Shown here piece after piece: positions 20,275 to 26,317 of a stretch of DNA of 37,386 nt. The translations under genes and the position numbers were made by a program. The stretch is from assembly GCA_902572735.1 (NCBI GenBank), contig CACGGX010000013.1:1-37386 (forward strand), given 5' to 3'. This stretch comes from an uncultured Alphaproteobacteria bacterium. GTDB taxonomy: Bacteria; Pseudomonadota; Alphaproteobacteria; HIMB59; GCA-002718135. Every line of letters begins with the position of its first letter. Positions within the stretch are counted from its first letter, which is position 1. A model generated the notes under the pieces. That model had not been told where the DNA came from. It saw only the letters and a program-made list of their open reading frames with translations, and searched no databases.

Positions 20275-21594
20275 TTAATGCATCAAAGGAGACCAAGCTG
20301 GGTCAGATCCTCCCAAGGGAGTTATTACCTTTCTTTCATTAAAACCAGTTAAATCAATAGAATATAGACTAGATTCACCCCCAGATCCATCTTCGGCAGT
20401 TCTCTCTTCTTTAAAATACATTAGAAATCTACCATTTGGTGCCCATGTTGGCCCCTCGACATGGAATGATTTTGCAATCATTCTTTCATTTGAACCATCT
20501 ACCTCCATAACACCTATATAAAATTGCCCTCCCTCTTGTTTAGTGAAAGCAATCATATCACCTCTTGGAGACCAGACTGGTGTGTAGTAACTTCCTGCTT
20601 GCCTGCTAATTCTTTTAATATTTTTTCCATTATTATCACTTACATATAAATGCCTTCGTCCACTTCTATCTGAATTAAAAACTATTTTTTTTCCATCAGG
20701 TGAAAAACTTGCAGAAACATCTATTGAAGAATTATTTGTAACTCTTTTTGAAATTCTCGTTTTTAAATCAAGAATATAAATTTCAGAATTTCCAATTTCT
20801 GGATCAGTGTAAGACATAACAATTTGATTACCATCAGGTGAAAAACGTGGAGCGAATGTCATTCCAGGAAACTCACCTACTATTTCTTGCTTACCAGTTT
20901 CTATATCAAAAATGTAAACTCGAGGATTATTTCTGTTTACGTAAGACATGTATGTAATTTTTTGTGAATTAGGAGAGAACCTTGGAGTTAAAACTAGATA
21001 GGATCCGTCTGTTAAAAAACGATGGTTTGATTGATCTTGATCCATGATTGCTAATCTTTTTTGTTTATTTTCTTTTGGTCCTGTCTCAGCAACATAAACT
21101 ATCCTTGTATCAAAGTAACCACCTTCTCCAGTTATATTTTTAAAAATTGAGTCCGAAATAATATGAGCAACTCTTCTCCAATTTTTTTCATTAGTCTCAT
21201 ATTTTTTTCCCACTATTTGCTTTTGTTGAAACACATCAAACAATCTGAATTCGACAGATATTTTTCCATTATTATTAGAAATTTTACCAGAAACTAGATG
21301 TTGAGCTTTTATTAATTTCCAATCTTCAAATCTTGGTTTGTTTGCCAATGATTCGTTATCTTGAATAAATGACCTTTTATCTATTGGTAAAAAAAGTCCA
21401 GATCTTTCTAAGTTGTCAGAAATGACAGTTGAAATGTTTTTTCCAACTTTTGTTAATTGCTCATTTTTTGAAAATAGTTCTGTAACAGCTATTGGAGTTG
21501 GTTTTACACTACCTTGTGTAAGAGTTACTTCTAAAGATAAAACTTTAAAACTAAAAAATAAAAAAAAGGTTATTAAAAAAACTTTTTTCATCAA
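20275..21594 (-). CDS. tolB: Tol-Pal system periplasmic protein TolB
   Basis: TolB (439 residues) has a signal peptide (about 1-20, ending KVLSLE), an N-terminal anticodon-binding-like domain (about 25-160) and a six-bladed beta-propeller built from repeats of the form FSPDGxxIxxxS/T (for example near residues 208, 250 and 295). It binds Pal and TolA. The start overlaps tolA by 4 bases; 100 bases, the longest non-coding gap here, separate it from pal. Confidence 0.95.
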   Translation of the reverse strand: MMKKVFLITFFLFFSFKVLSLEVTLTQGSVKPTPIAVTELFSKNEQLTKVGKNISTVISDNLERSGLFLPIDKRSFIQDNESLANKPRFEDWKLIKAQHLVSGKISNNNGKISVEFRLFDVFQQKQIVGKKYETNEKNWRRVAHIISDSIFKNITGEGGYFDTRIVYVAETGPKENKQKRLAIMDQDQSNHRFLTDGSYLVLTPRFSPNSQKITYMSYVNRNNPRVYIFDIETGKQEIVGEFPGMTFAPRFSPDGNQIVMSYTDPEIGNSEIYILDLKTRISKRVTNNSSIDVSASFSPDGKKIVFNSDRSGRRHLYVSDNNGKNIKRISRQAGSYYTPVWSPRGDMIAFTKQEGGQFYIGVMEVDGSNERMIAKSFHVEGPTWAPNGRFLMYFKEERTAEDGSGGESSLYSIDLTGFNERKVITPLGGSDPAWSPLMH

Positions 21595-22661
21595 TATCCT
21601 TTCATAATACTATAATCAAAAGTAATTGTAAGATTTTTCCATAGATTATATTTATCTTTTGGAAGTTTTAACGGTGTACATTCTGGGTTTAAAAGAGTTC
21701 TCATTGCGCTATCTGTTATTGGTCCATAAAATGGATTAGTTTTAGCTATATTTGTGTCAACAATGCGGATGCTACTTGGTGAAACCTTCATATTTTGTAA
21801 TATTTTTGCTGAAATTGTTACTTTGTCTCCTCTTTCTATAACTGCACCTGCTGGAGCATTCCAACAAGAAGATAATTGCTGCCTCAACATGTCTATTTCA
21901 GATATTGATAGCATAATATTGTCGTCAGTATCATCTGTACTTTTATTATCAACCTCTTCAACCTCTTCCTTAACTTCATTTTGAACTGTATTTGTTTTTT
22001 CATTTCTTAAATCTTTAAGCATTGATGCTATGCTAAAATCTTTCTCAGGTTTCGGCTTTGGTTTAGATACGGTTTTATCATTTTCCAACTTTGGTTTATC
22101 CTTTATGTTTGTTTCAACATCTAAATCAGATTTAACATTTTCATTATTTATAATTTTTGGCTTTGGCTTGAGTTTTGGTTTAATTATATCAGTTTTAATT
22201 GTTTCTACTTTTTTCTTAACCTCTAAAATTTCCTTTTCTTTGATAGCTACTTTTTTTGTTTCCTTAACTTCTAAATTTGGAGTTTGTTTCATTTCCAAAA
22301 CTGGTTGATTTGGATTAGTTTTTTCTTCAATTTCAGTTTTATTTATTTCAACATTTTTTTTTACTTCTAATTGATCTGATGAATTAAATTTTTTTTGCTT
22401 AGTAATTGTTTCCTTATTTTTATTTTCTGGTTTTTCAGTATCAGATTTTTTCAAATTTGTATTTTCATCAACATTAAGTATTTCAATAGGTATTACGTTT
22501 GGAACATAGATTTGTTTTGGAGAAAAAAAATTTGGTAAGCCGACCATAAACAAAAGGATAATTAAATGTATTAGTGTTGAAAAAATAACTCCTGATGTTT
22601 TAGGATTTAAATTTTCAAAAAAGTTTATAATTTTTAAACTATTATAGCTTATACGATCCAT
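21591..22661 (-). CDS. tolA: TolA, inner-membrane energy-transducing protein
   Basis: A 356-residue protein: one N-terminal helix (about 20-42), a long charged periplasmic spacer (about 55-245), and a C-terminal globular domain (about 248-356) with LSISEIDMLRQQLSSCWNAP and paired cysteines at CWN and PEC. TolA carries proton-motive-force energy from TolQR to TolB-Pal. The spacer is rich in Lys/Glu/Pro with KPKLKPKPK and KPKPKPEK tracts, so it is more TonB-like than the Ala-rich helix of E. coli TolA. It directly abuts tolR. Confidence 0.9.
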   Translation of the reverse strand: MDRISYNSLKIINFFENLNPKTSGVIFSTLIHLIILLFMVGLPNFFSPKQIYVPNVIPIEILNVDENTNLKKSDTEKPENKNKETITKQKKFNSSDQLEVKKNVEINKTEIEEKTNPNQPVLEMKQTPNLEVKETKKVAIKEKEILEVKKKVETIKTDIIKPKLKPKPKIINNENVKSDLDVETNIKDKPKLENDKTVSKPKPKPEKDFSIASMLKDLRNEKTNTVQNEVKEEVEEVDNKSTDDTDDNIMLSISEIDMLRQQLSSCWNAPAGAVIERGDKVTISAKILQNMKVSPSSIRIVDTNIAKTNPFYGPITDSAMRTLLNPECTPLKLPKDKYNLWKNLTITFDYSIMKGY

Positions 22662-23090
22662 CTATTGCTCAAGATTTTGAGTAATTAATGCAACTTTAAT
22701 ATATCCTGCTGAATTTATTATGGACATAATTTCCATAATCCTTCCATAAGCTACCACTCTATCACCTCGTATATAAATTCTTGCTTCTGTGTTTTGTTCA
22801 GTAATAGCGTTTAGTCGAGGAATCAAATTTTCTACTTCAACCTTTGATTCCCCAATGTATACTTCTCCGTCTAACTTAACAGTTATCTCAATTGGATCTT
22901 TAATATCAGTTAATGCAGTAGCTTTAACCTTTGGTAAATCAACTTTTATTCCAACCGTTAGAAGAGGTGCGGTAACCATAAAAACAATTAGTAAAACAAG
23001 CATAACATCTACAAAAGGTGTAACGTTAATTTCACTCATTTGAGTGTACCTTTGCTTCTTACGTTTGTTTAAATTACTTGAGGTAATCAA
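22662..23090 (-). CDS. tolR: TolR, proton-channel subunit of the Tol system
   Basis: A 142-residue ExbD/TolR protein: basic cytoplasmic N-terminus, then SEINVTPFVDVMLVLLIVFM with the proton-conducting aspartate in the single helix (about residues 28-45), and a periplasmic domain ending in VALITQ. The ATG at 23090 is kept because alphaproteobacterial TolR proteins carry such a basic leader before MSEINVTP. One base separates it from tolQ. Confidence 0.94.
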   Translation of the reverse strand: MITSSNLNKRKKQRYTQMSEINVTPFVDVMLVLLIVFMVTAPLLTVGIKVDLPKVKATALTDIKDPIEITVKLDGEVYIGESKVEVENLIPRLNAITEQNTEARIYIRGDRVVAYGRIMEIMSIINSAGYIKVALITQNLEQ

Positions 23091-23091
23091 T

Positions 23092-23805
23092 TTATTTTTT
23101 CTCTAGCTGTCTAAAAAAAATTGTTGAGAACTCATCCATAAATGTTTCCAGGGATATAAAGTATTTTGATAGGTCGTTTGAAATTTTATTGTACGCAACT
23201 ACGGCTGGTATAGCTACAAAAAGACCTAGAGCAGTTGCAAATAACGCCTCTGCAATTCCTGGTGCAACTACTGCTAAATTTGTATTTTGAGCTATTGCAA
23301 TAGATTTAAAACTATTCATTATACCCCAAACTGTTCCAAATAATCCTATAAAAGGTGCAGTTGATCCAGCAGTTGCGAGGAAAGTTAAATTTCTTTCAAC
23401 ATTTTCACTTTCTTTGTTAAAAACAACTGTCATTGATCTCATCATTCTATCCTTTAAAGAGTTTATATCTGAAGTATCATTTTCATATTGAGATTTACTT
23501 TTTTTCCACTCTAAAATTGCAGCACAAAATAACTTTGACTTTGGATCTGTCTGATTAAAATTTAAAGTTTCATATAAATCTTCAAATGAATTTCCAGACC
23601 AAAAAATATCTTCAAATTCTTTTTCAAGTTTTTTTAATTGTCTAATTCTTAAAATTTTTGAAATTATTACATTCCAAGAATAAAGAGAGGCTAAGATTAA
23701 TATTATAATTACTGATTTGACAACAATGTCAGCCTGCATGAATAAAGCAAGCATTGAAAAATCTGGTGCTTCTGTCGATAAATTTGTACTATTAATATCT
23801 GCCAT
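23092..23805 (-). CDS. tolQ: TolQ, proton-channel subunit of the Tol system
   Basis: A 237-residue MotA/TolQ/ExbB protein with three membrane helices: about 27-45, then the paired helices around LTFLATAGSTAPFIGLFGTVWGIM and IAEALFATALGLFVAIPAVVAYN. TolQ and TolR form the proton channel that drives TolA. Only 5 bases separate it from the upstream Hjc-like gene. The thioesterase gene ybgC, which usually precedes tolQ, is absent here. Confidence 0.94.
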   Translation of the reverse strand: MADINSTNLSTEAPDFSMLALFMQADIVVKSVIIILILASLYSWNVIISKILRIRQLKKLEKEFEDIFWSGNSFEDLYETLNFNQTDPKSKLFCAAILEWKKSKSQYENDTSDINSLKDRMMRSMTVVFNKESENVERNLTFLATAGSTAPFIGLFGTVWGIMNSFKSIAIAQNTNLAVVAPGIAEALFATALGLFVAIPAVVAYNKISNDLSKYFISLETFMDEFSTIFFRQLEKK

Positions 23806-23810
23806 AATTA

Positions 23811-24104
23811 TTATTTTTTAATTTTTTCAAGATCGCTACTATGAACCATAACCCAAAACCCTGGTCTATTTTTTTCACATAATGCTATTACTGGAGTCTT
23901 GCCCTCTTCTTTGGCAAGTTTTGCAGTATCATCCCATAAACTAATTGCTGTATGCTTTGCTCTTAATTTACATTCTATAAATAAATCTTCATGAATTACA
24001 TCAGCTCTTGTTACTTTACCATTACCCCCGCTCAAAGGTGTCCTTTTCCCATTGAAATAGTTTGCAACATCTCTTTCTCTTTTTTTCCAGGCTTTATCAG
24101 GCAT
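23811..24104 (-). CDS. Hjc-like PD-(D/E)XK nuclease, probable Holliday junction resolvase
   Basis: A compact 97-residue protein. It has a basic N-terminus with E10 in KKRERDVANYF, a GxxGK loop SGGNGK (25-30), D35 in TRADVI, and E44-C45-K46 in LFIECK, then an amphipathic helix and the IALCEKNRPGFWVMVHSSDL strands. The E...D...ExK spacing is that of archaeal Hjc and related PD-(D/E)XK endonucleases (known family layout). It lies between yebC (14-base gap) and tolQ (5-base gap), with a good AAAGGA site 6 bases before its ATG. This is where alphaproteobacteria usually have ruvC-ruvA-ruvB-ybgC. Its GC content (about 36% by hand count) seems slightly high. Junction cleavage is inferred; another PD-(D/E)XK role is possible. 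Confidence 0.7.
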   Translation of the reverse strand: MPDKAWKKRERDVANYFNGKRTPLSGGNGKVTRADVIHEDLFIECKLRAKHTAISLWDDTAKLAKEEGKTPVIALCEKNRPGFWVMVHSSDLEKIKK

Positions 24105-24118
24105 CTATATTCCTTTCA

Positions 24119-24868
24119 TTAGGCTGTCAGTGAAGATAAAACATTATCATCAACTTCAAAATTTGATGATACAACTTGAACGTCGTCATTGTCTTCTAAA
24201 ACTTCAAGTAATTTAAATAGTTTGTCTGCTGTGTCTTTTCCAATATTTATATTATTTTTACTTTTCCAAATTAAATTTGCAGAGTTTGTCTGTCCATACT
24301 GTTGAATTAATTTATCATTAAGTTCATGCAAATGGTTTTGATCACAGTATATTGAATATTCGGTGTCATTAATTTCATAATCTTCACTATTATTTTCAAT
24401 AAGAAATTCTAAGAGTTGATCTTCTTTTACTAAGTTTTTATCGAGAGTGATATTTCCAAATCTGTCAAAACCAAAACTAACACTTCCTGTTTCACCCAAA
24501 TTACCTCCATATTTACTAAAAGAGGACCTAATCTCAGCAGCTGTTCTATTTTTATTATTTGTAAGGGCCTCAACTATTATTGCAATACCTTCAGGGCCAT
24601 ATCCTTCATATCTTACTTCTTCATAATTACTATCAGGATCATTTCCTTGACCTTTTTTTATTGCTCTCTCAATGTTATCTTTTGGCATATTGAGAGACTT
24701 GGCTGAAGCAATTGCAGATCTTAATCTAATATTACTTTCAATATCTTCACCTCCTACTTTGACAGCAACAGAAATTTCTCTTCCAAGTCTTGAGAAAACT
24801 TTTGCTCTTTTTTTATCTTGAGCACCTTTACGATGCATAATATTTTTAAATTTCGAGTGCCCTGCCAT
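24119..24868 (-). CDS. yebC: YebC/TACO1 family protein
   Basis: A 249-residue YebC-family protein starting with the signature MAGHSKFKNIMHRKGAQDKK and including NMPKDNIERAIKKGQG and YEGYGPEGIAIIVEALTNN. The family was annotated as transcriptional regulators; later work ties it to relief of ribosome stalling, as for mitochondrial TACO1. It is normally next to ruvC; here the Hjc-like gene takes that place. No ribosome binding site is visible before its ATG. Confidence 0.93.
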   Translation of the reverse strand: MAGHSKFKNIMHRKGAQDKKRAKVFSRLGREISVAVKVGGEDIESNIRLRSAIASAKSLNMPKDNIERAIKKGQGNDPDSNYEEVRYEGYGPEGIAIIVEALTNNKNRTAAEIRSSFSKYGGNLGETGSVSFGFDRFGNITLDKNLVKEDQLLEFLIENNSEDYEINDTEYSIYCDQNHLHELNDKLIQQYGQTNSANLIWKSKNNINIGKDTADKLFKLLEVLEDNDDVQVVSSNFEVDDNVLSSLTA

Positions 24869-24947: not shown

Positions 24948-25739
24948 TTATGTCTCTTGAATTGGGGTGATATTTTTAGCTAAACCAGTATTAGTATCAA
25001 TCTCTATTAAAGCCCCGCATACTGTTATGTTTTCAGTGGCAGGTGTAAATCTACCTTCTGCCCTGTACCCCTTAACAAATCCATGTATTGGATTATTTAT
25101 ATCAAAACCAATTATTGAATTATAATCACCTGACATCCCCACGTCTGTTTGATAGGCTGTACCTTTAGGTAAAATAACACTGTCTGCCGTTGGCACATGA
25201 GTATGTGTGCCTAAAACTGCCGTAACTTGTCCATCAACATAATATCCAAATGCCTTTTTTTCAGAAGTTGCTTCACCATGCATATCAATAATTATCGCAT
25301 CACATGTACTGCCTAACTTCTCTTTTTGAAGAAATTCAATTATGCCTTTAAAGGGATCATCTAATGATAAATTCATAAATAATCTGAGCATTACTTGTAC
25401 TACTATAATTTTTTTTCCATTTAAAAGTTCAAGATTATAATATCCTTTTCCAGGAACCCCGTCAGGATAATTCAAAGCTCTGATTATTTTTGGATTTTCT
25501 TCAATATAAGAAAGCATATCTCTTTGATCCCATGCATGATTCCCAAGTGTAAGTAGATCAATTCCGCTAGAAAATAATTCTTCTGCATCCTTTTTTGAAA
25601 TTCCATAACCAGAAGTAGCATTCTCACCATTAGCAATAATCATATCTGTATTATATTTAGATTTGAGTGTTGGGATAATTTCTTTAATTTTTTTTCGTGA
25701 CGCCTTACCGACAATATCACCTATAAAAAGAATTTTCAT
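24948..25739 (-). CDS. YmdB-type metallophosphoesterase (TIGR00282 family)
   Basis: A 263-residue binuclear metallophosphoesterase. Metal-binding motifs in order are FIGDIVG (5-11), NGENAT (38-43), TLGNHAWD, DMHGEATSEK and GTHTHVPTAD. Bacillus YmdB and relatives hydrolyse 2',3'-cyclic nucleotides or act on RNA-related substrates; the cellular role in alphaproteobacteria is not settled. It starts in a 4-base ATGA overlap with the 5-FCL gene, a usual neighbour in this class. Confidence 0.9.
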   Translation of the reverse strand: MKILFIGDIVGKASRKKIKEIIPTLKSKYNTDMIIANGENATSGYGISKKDAEELFSSGIDLLTLGNHAWDQRDMLSYIEENPKIIRALNYPDGVPGKGYYNLELLNGKKIIVVQVMLRLFMNLSLDDPFKGIIEFLQKEKLGSTCDAIIIDMHGEATSEKKAFGYYVDGQVTAVLGTHTHVPTADSVILPKGTAYQTDVGMSGDYNSIIGFDINNPIHGFVKGYRAEGRFTPATENITVCGALIEIDTNTGLAKNITPIQET

Positions 25740-26317
25740 TGAAAACTATATAAATTTTTTTCAGTAATAACATAATCCACTTTAAAATCAAATTTGTCTA
25801 TGGGTATGTAATCTAACTTTTGTTCTTCATATGCATAGGCCACAGAGGTGAATCTGTGATTAATTTTATTTAAATAAGCAAATGTCCTGTCATAATAACC
25901 TCCACCATAACCTAATCTATTTCCCTTCTTATCAAAAGCTAAACAAGGTACAAAAATTAATTCAGGATTTAAAATTTTATTTTTATTTTGAGGCTCTGAT
26001 ATATTCATATGTCCTTTTACAAAATTCTCTTCACTCTTAAATTGCTTAAAGATTAAATGACTATTTTTTTTTTCAATTACAGGGAGACATAAAATTTTAT
26101 TTTTAATAAAGATAAGATTGTTAAGCTCTCTTGTATTTATCTCAGAATTTATAGAAATAAAACTAGAAACAATATTAATTTCTTGAAAGTTAATTTTTTC
26201 AAAAAGGTCATTAAACAAAGTTAAAGCAAAATGAGATGGTTTATTATTAAAAATCTTATCTCTTATAATTTTTTGTTTTTTTCTGATAATTGATTTTTCA
26301 TCTTTAATATTATTCAT
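25736..26317 (-). CDS. 5-formyltetrahydrofolate cyclo-ligase
   Basis: A 193-residue 5-FCL/MTHFS enzyme, which converts 5-formyl-THF to 5,10-methenyl-THF with ATP. The family signature NRLGYGGGYYDRTFAYL lies near residues 133-149, and the N-terminal IIRKKQKIIRDK carries the usual basic helix. It overlaps zapA by 8 bases. In many alphaproteobacteria the 6S RNA gene lies between zapA and this gene; here there is no room for it. Confidence 0.92.
   Translation of the reverse strand: MNNIKDEKSIIRKKQKIIRDKIFNNKPSHFALTLFNDLFEKINFQEINIVSSFISINSEINTRELNNLIFIKNKILCLPVIEKKNSHLIFKQFKSEENFVKGHMNISEPQNKNKILNPELIFVPCLAFDKKGNRLGYGGGYYDRTFAYLNKINHRFTSVAYAYEEQKLDYIPIDKFDFKVDYVITEKNLYSFQ

Follow-up and report, generated by a model that had tools for sequence, protein, structure and literature searches.

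RuvABC and its described substitutes

According to a 2005 survey, RuvC is believed to act jointly with RuvAB as a resolvasome, and RuvAB is counted among the near-universal recombination genes of bacteria (PMC1193525). In this study, we analysed a 37,386-nucleotide (nt) stretch of DNA from an uncultured alphaproteobacterium (contig CACGGX010000013.1; hereafter the window), in which a gene for a 97-amino acid (aa) protein resembling the Holliday junction resolvase Hjc of archaea lies between yebC and tolQ, in the place of ruvC, ruvA and ruvB. No match over the cut-offs for RuvA or RuvB was found in any of 26 tested genomes of the order to which the window belongs. We consider it likely that ruvCAB in the yebC-tol operon was replaced by a minimal phage-type Holliday junction resolvase that works without a motor. 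The best reading of the data as a whole is that autonomous phage resolvases repeatedly displaced RuvABC.

In the Firmicutes, RecU is described as a non-orthologous displacement of RuvC with RuvAB kept, and only two genomes have RecU close to ruvAB (PMC1193525). A non-orthologous enzyme has displaced RuvC there, as it probably has here; however, RuvAB is kept in the Firmicutes, whereas here it is gone as well and the newcomer occupies the position of the former genes. RecU is a PD-(D/E)XK enzyme. Among the 117 genomes of the same survey, the only RecA-positive ones to lack RuvAB are those of Aquifex and Wigglesworthia, two genomes that both have RecG (PMC1193525). The genomes studied here resemble them in lacking RuvAB and in mostly bearing RecG, but the absence extends to all 26 genomes tested within one order, plus others, and a resolvase stands in the vacated slot. 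The RuvC of jumbo phages is not coupled to a RuvB-like ATPase (PMC7824862). Resolvases without RuvAB are seen among the RusA or RuvC-like enzymes of prophages and phages; those are phage genes, whereas the gene described here is fixed in the chromosome. In isopod Wolbachia, ruvA is described as being under relaxed selection and recG as conserved (PMC4224334). Our literature search, made mostly outside the subscription literature, found no report of a phage-type gene that replaces a whole RuvABC set within its own operon position, and the main text of the HIMB59 papers searched by term contains neither 'ruv' nor 'Holliday'.

The yebC-tolQ interval and the search for RuvABC

In the preliminary description of the window, yebC-ruvC-ruvA-ruvB-ybgC-tolQ was given as the usual alphaproteobacterial order. 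We fetched 20 RuvC loci for reference. Locus L252 has precisely this order, and L254 has the order ymdB - (194 aa) - yebC - ruvC - ruvA - ruvB - tolQ - tolR - tolA - tolB, which is the same without ybgC; Pfam matched ruvC and ruvB in both loci, along with the L254 ruvA and the ybgC-like gene in L252. Among the 20 loci, tolQ is not nearby in every one, and several continue with other genes after yebC-ruvC. The window has one small gene where L252, L254 and L256 have three or four. Reading of the open reading frame (ORF), with the neighbours identified by Pfam, bore out that this 97-codon gene stands alone between yebC and tolQ, 14 nt from the former and 5 nt from the latter; the span of 23811..24868 given earlier also covers yebC, which is an ordinary gene.

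The ORF is a real gene because its order is conserved across loci and its ratio of nonsynonymous to synonymous substitution rates (dN/dS) is low. Our genome set consisted of the window's own genome (1.32 Mb, 40 contigs, 83% complete) and 100 relatives of the same genus or order, the order being represented by two genera. The resolvase gene was present in 86 of these 101 genomes; a second weak match, in G055, was judged by eye to be an epimerase-like protein. All 49 loci read from the two families (L004-L052, of which L015 belongs to the window) have yebC-resolvase-tolQ, and so do 79 of the 80 loci taken from named genome records; the two sets overlap in organisms, and same-genus loci of the two collections possibly come from the same single-cell genomes, so the counts are not independent. 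The median dN/dS of the resolvase gene was 0.017 in 87 same-genus comparisons, the lowest among the five operon genes compared (0.026-0.097 for the others). Between the two families (13 comparisons), identity is about 71% for the resolvase but 49-56% for tolQ, tolR and yebC and 41% for ymdB. In the exceptional locus, L133 of AG-457-I08, the resolvase frame continues into another frame (L133:2118-3023, 301 aa) that is pyrE-like by eye, with other genes beyond; this is either a rearrangement or a single-cell assembly chimera.

RuvC (PF02075) was matched in none of the 101 genomes. RuvA, RuvB and RecG were searched in 26 of the better genomes, including one complete genome and 12 of at least 90% completeness. 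The best score was 34.1 bits for RuvB (TIGR00635, cut-off 299 bits) and 20.4 bits for RuvA (TIGR00084, cut-off 85), and no genome of the 26 was over either cut-off. The RuvC, RuvB and RuvA searches do find their targets in E. coli, Caulobacter and other controls. Several weaker candidates were rejected. The match in the window's own genome over the looser Pfam RuvB_N cut-off (30.2 bits, summed stretches) is the gamma/tau subunit of DNA polymerase III, and the other weak RuvB- or RuvA-like matches in that genome are a ClpA/B-type protein, FtsH and DNA polymerase I. The preliminary description had proposed that RuvC, and maybe all of RuvABC, was lost, and had named an intact ruvCAB elsewhere in the genome as the finding that would speak against it; none was found, and the lack of matches over cut-off extends to all three proteins.

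That description had also suggested another branch-migration motor such as RecG, which was indeed found in 24 of the 26 genomes: in 21 at full or nearly full length and in three as a piece (G028, G039 and G072). It was over the curated cut-off in nine of the 26 and was not found in G064 and G096. RecG may be the remaining known branch-migration motor, in a search that covered RuvA, RuvB and RecG.

In a draw of 385 genomes from the class, the resolvase profile was matched in nine genomes and RuvC in 353, without overlap (G352 and G430 were counted as RuvC-negative through absence from the list of RuvC positives). Five of the nine carriers belong to the window's order and four to family f25 of another order, giving three families in all. 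In f25, the resolvase gene again lies between yebC and tolQ (4/4 genomes), and RuvB was not matched at E 1e-20 in any of the four. Fisher's test for mutual exclusion with RuvC gave p 6e-11, but the genomes are not independent; with only three carrier families, the independent events are few. In a draw of 398 genomes from the phylum, the window's own genome was the only carrier, none being found among the 397 others. YraN (UPF0102) is a bacterial family with an Hjc-like fold. Its profile (PF02021) was over the cut-off in none of 18 genomes, with one weak match in G352.

Phage relatives and the origin of the gene

In IMG/VR, 146 stretches encode a relative of the resolvase, and the following counts refer to the best 80 of the 146. 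These viral relatives are 71-83% identical to the 97-aa protein. The gene for the terminase large subunit (TerL) follows on the same strand, at a distance of up to 1 kb in 74 of the 80 viral loci and of up to 20 nt in 54 of them, and that for the terminase small subunit (TerS) lies within 800 nt upstream in 46. No other protein of the window was matched in the 80 loci, so that none of the viral genes adjoins yebC or tolQ. Several source contigs are 36-38 kb long, and viral locus L185 also encodes a head-tail adaptor and a helicase. An annotated phage collection contained relatives in only two records, 45-47% identical. In Bacteroides phage BS162P1, a resolvase-like domain (47% identical) ends a gene annotated as DNA endonuclease I-HmuI (L262:7323-8315), and a domain of this type seems free-standing in L263.

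A tree of 95 proteins was rooted on a Bacteroides phage and a gut phage sequence, with L133 left out and the f1 and f2 row labels assigned by sequence motif. Bacterial clades lie among phages in it, the 45 phage rows are paraphyletic, and the starred branches force at least two changes of phage label, in a tree with few columns, long outgroup branches and unsettled bootstrap. In approximately unbiased (AU) tests, p was 0.03 for all bacterial copies as one clade, 0.25 for f1 plus f2 and 0.058 for the phages as one clade. As far as these sequences go, the tree and the AU tests support a phage reservoir without a firm count of transfers. The one exact slot shared by three families points to a single ancestral insertion, after which alleles may have been exchanged again with phages. 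A metagenome protein, P0117, combines an N-terminal half of f25 type with a C-terminal half of f1 type, and is a recombinant or an assembly chimera.

The history was probably as follows. In phages, the resolvase most likely clears branched DNA just before packaging, a role suggested by the location of its gene ahead of TerL. An ancestor of the window's bacterial order would have acquired the phage gene within the yebC-tol operon, at the place of ruvCAB, and ruvC, ruvA and ruvB would then have been lost together under genome streamlining. An autonomous resolvase needs no RuvAB, so all three ruv genes would become dispensable at once, which fits their joint absence. Hjc acts as a dimer, and the cell would likewise resolve junctions with a PD-(D/E)XK enzyme acting as a dimer.

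The reverse direction, with a cellular origin of the gene in these bacteria and its capture by phages from their hosts on perhaps several occasions, seems unlikely to us. Monophyly of the phages is only borderline rejected, and Pelagibacter phage Baldr, the nearest listed and cultured phage by TerL (77%), has no such resolvase before TerL. However, the phage rows surround those of bacteria, the outgroups likewise come from phages, the carriers of the class draw are confined to three families with no others in the phylum draw, and the viral position before TerL is nearly uniform.

Predicted fold and other occupants of the slot

Residues E10, D35, E44 and K46 of the 97-aa protein are invariant in 60 of 60 aligned sequences, an alignment that takes in viral proteins and two outgroups at 43-44% identity. 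The protein matches PHROG_2002 (E 2.5e-10, residues 3-94 of 97), a family whose name, 'Holliday junction resolvase', is an annotation. The phage copy next to TerL in L185 and the f25 copy in L238 match this family too; the gene described here differs from the phage resolvases of the family in being a conserved chromosomal gene in the place of ruvCAB. Searches of Pfam, NCBIfam and PDB sequences with the single protein found no family: Hjc in Pfam-A was not matched at E up to 1, and the RuvC (PF02075) and UPF0102 profiles gave no match in the protein. A profile search of the PDB gave a single match with E 0.21, which was taken as chance.

The predicted fold is PD-(D/E)XK. Archaeal Hjc took ranks 1-4 in the structural comparison by a small margin, and the fold scores do not cleanly separate Hjc from other PD-(D/E)XK nucleases. 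Alignment with solved Hjc by hhalign gave Prob 68.6 and a score of 33.2, where 100 column shuffles scored no higher than 20.0, and placed D35, E44 and K46 in register with D33, E46 and K48 of 1gef. The preliminary description had read E10, D35 and E44-x-K46 as an Hjc-type layout. Its last three residues do align to catalytic positions of Hjc, whereas E10, although invariant among the relatives, lies outside the aligned block, which begins at residue 15. The structure and profile comparison proposed there thus returned archaeal Hjc as best match, if narrowly. The protein shares with archaeal Hjc and Hje (1gef, 2wcw, 1hh1 and 1ob8) the PD-(D/E)XK core and the D...E-x-K in register, but it is only 15-22% identical to them, it has 97 aa whereas their chains have 116-127 residues, and its gene is bacterial and viral and stands in the ruvCAB slot. 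Together with the slot, the lack of RuvABC matches and the PHROG_2002 match, this predicted fold supports the earlier idea of a non-RuvC minimal enzyme in the exact operon place of ruvCAB, as a predicted resolvase.

The yebC neighbourhood was read in seven of nine further RuvC-less alphaproteobacterial genomes; G211 and G226 yielded no yebC. In G197, a complete genome of 1.21 Mb, the order is yebC - 165 aa - ybgC - tolQ. The 165-aa protein matches PHROG_1770 (E 4.8e-36) and is 43% identical to the resolvase of Salmonella phage epsilon15. It has no Pfam RuvC match and reaches 21 bits with the NCBI RuvC model (cut-off 163), which makes it a distant relative of RuvC. Pelagibacteraceae is the named source of an identical protein and Ca. 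Pelagibacter sp. HIMB1517 that of one with 99% identity, and we therefore took G197 as SAR11. Such proteins are labelled crossover junction endodeoxyribonuclease by their sources and RuvC by JGI, and the search of IMG/VR gave one relative (38%). At the corresponding position, G217 encodes a 166-aa relative (35% identical), also of PHROG_1770. In G148 and G273, which are of another family, the order is yebC - 168 aa - tilS-like PP-loop gene - ftsH; the stretch lacks tol genes, and the neighbours were named from their similarity to genes of the window. The 168-aa protein, which matches PDDEXK_15/PHROG_244, is 44% identical to that of PA5oct-type phages and 63% identical to one of a viral contig, in which a gene for an SMC/RecN-type ATPase adjoins. 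Of RuvA and RuvB, it was RuvB that was searched for in G197, G217, G148 and G273, and none of the four had a match at E 1e-20.

Altogether, the class draw contains 32 genomes without RuvC, and in 13 of these a phage-type resolvase lies beside yebC, a tally that leaves out ten of them (G306, G308, G311, G340, G350, G368, G395, G400, G444 and G472). G233, G270 and G297 (L272, L277 and L278) have neither a RuvC or RuvB match nor a recognised resolvase beside yebC, and the 177-aa yebC neighbour of G233 (99% complete) matched nothing in PHROG or Pfam; loss of RuvABC is therefore not always followed by a visible successor. G119 and G250 (L303 and L304), which stand for one family, keep ruvA-ruvB with no recognised ruvC beside them and no RuvC match in the genome. 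G187 and G131 are RuvC-less with RuvB kept, and their contigs break at that point.

From these loci we lean towards the view that phage resolvases have landed repeatedly in the ruvCAB slot next to yebC, that those of the PHROG_2002, PHROG_1770 and PDDEXK_15/PHROG_244 types each displaced the whole of RuvABC, and that SAR11 and the window's order (probably HIMB59-like), both highly abundant in the ocean, recombine with motor-free virus-type resolvases, without RuvAB. RuvB is also unmatched in all four f25 genomes and in the complete genome taken as SAR11, and a virus-type nuclease under strong selection occupies the vacated RuvABC space. If the replacement is true, it raises the testable question of what cells need RuvAB for when a resolvase works alone. 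In-place capture from a phage packaging module would then be a route by which streamlining sheds a conserved three-gene machine, and the natural parallel replacements would be open to comparison.

There is a small chance that the gene encodes a phage-derived PD-(D/E)XK nuclease that serves a different function, for example in anti-phage defence, DNA-end trimming or competence, that its position is coincidental and that RecG alone processes junctions. The poor separation of Hjc from other PD-(D/E)XK nucleases and the three RuvC- and RuvB-less genomes without a recognised resolvase at yebC are consistent with this. Defence genes change fast, however, unlike a gene with dN/dS of 0.017, and the mutual exclusion with RuvC, the exact slot and the other resolvase types adjoining yebC in other RuvC-less lineages argue against this reading. 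Of the virus-or-archaea origin proposed at first, the virus is supported and the archaea are not: horizontal transfer of an archaeal Hjc is very improbable, since the top fold and profile matches are archaeal Hjc but identity to solved Hjc is low and Pfam Hjc is unmatched, against 71-83% identity in viral contigs. Incomplete assembly as the mere cause of the missing ruvCAB has a negligible chance even with the window's genome at 83%, because G061 (a single contig of 1,410,127 bases, 99% complete) and 11 others of at least 90% completeness have the resolvase and no RuvC match (12/12), none of the 12 such genomes within the tested 26 reaches the RuvA or RuvB cut-off, and the operon site itself is sequenced through.

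Table 1. Coordinates of the resolvase gene, its neighbours and the other occupants beside yebC (window positions unless a locus is named).
Feature	Position	Strand	Basis or remark
97-aa Hjc-like PD-(D/E)XK resolvase gene (predicted), PHROG_2002 type, in the ruvCAB slot	23811..24104	-	ORF, profile match, conservation, fold
Resolvase E10 codon	24077-24075	-	
Resolvase D35 codon	24002-24000	-	
Resolvase E44 codon	23975-23973	-	
Resolvase K46 codon	23969-23967	-	
yebC-resolvase gap with Shine-Dalgarno-like AAAGGAAT	24105..24118	-	AAAGGAAT immediately 5' of the resolvase start codon; fits a single operon
yebC, upstream neighbour	24119..24868	-	Pfam PF01709/PF20772; upstream flank of ruvC in L252, L254 and L256
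tolQ, downstream neighbour	23092..23805	-	Pfam PF01618; flanks ruvB or ybgC downstream in L252, L254 and L256
tolR, tolA and tolB, remaining tol operon	20275..23090	-	Named by position and likeness; order conserved
ymdB and fthC-like gene, upstream context	24948..26317	-	Pfam PF13277 (ymdB)
165-aa PHROG_1770 gene (G197)	L276:6498-6995		PHROG match
168-aa PDDEXK_15/PHROG_244 gene beside yebC (G148, G273)	L273:6475-6981, L274:1745-2251		PHROG/Pfam match

In the ruvCAB-bearing loci L254 and L256, ymdB likewise lies upstream of yebC.
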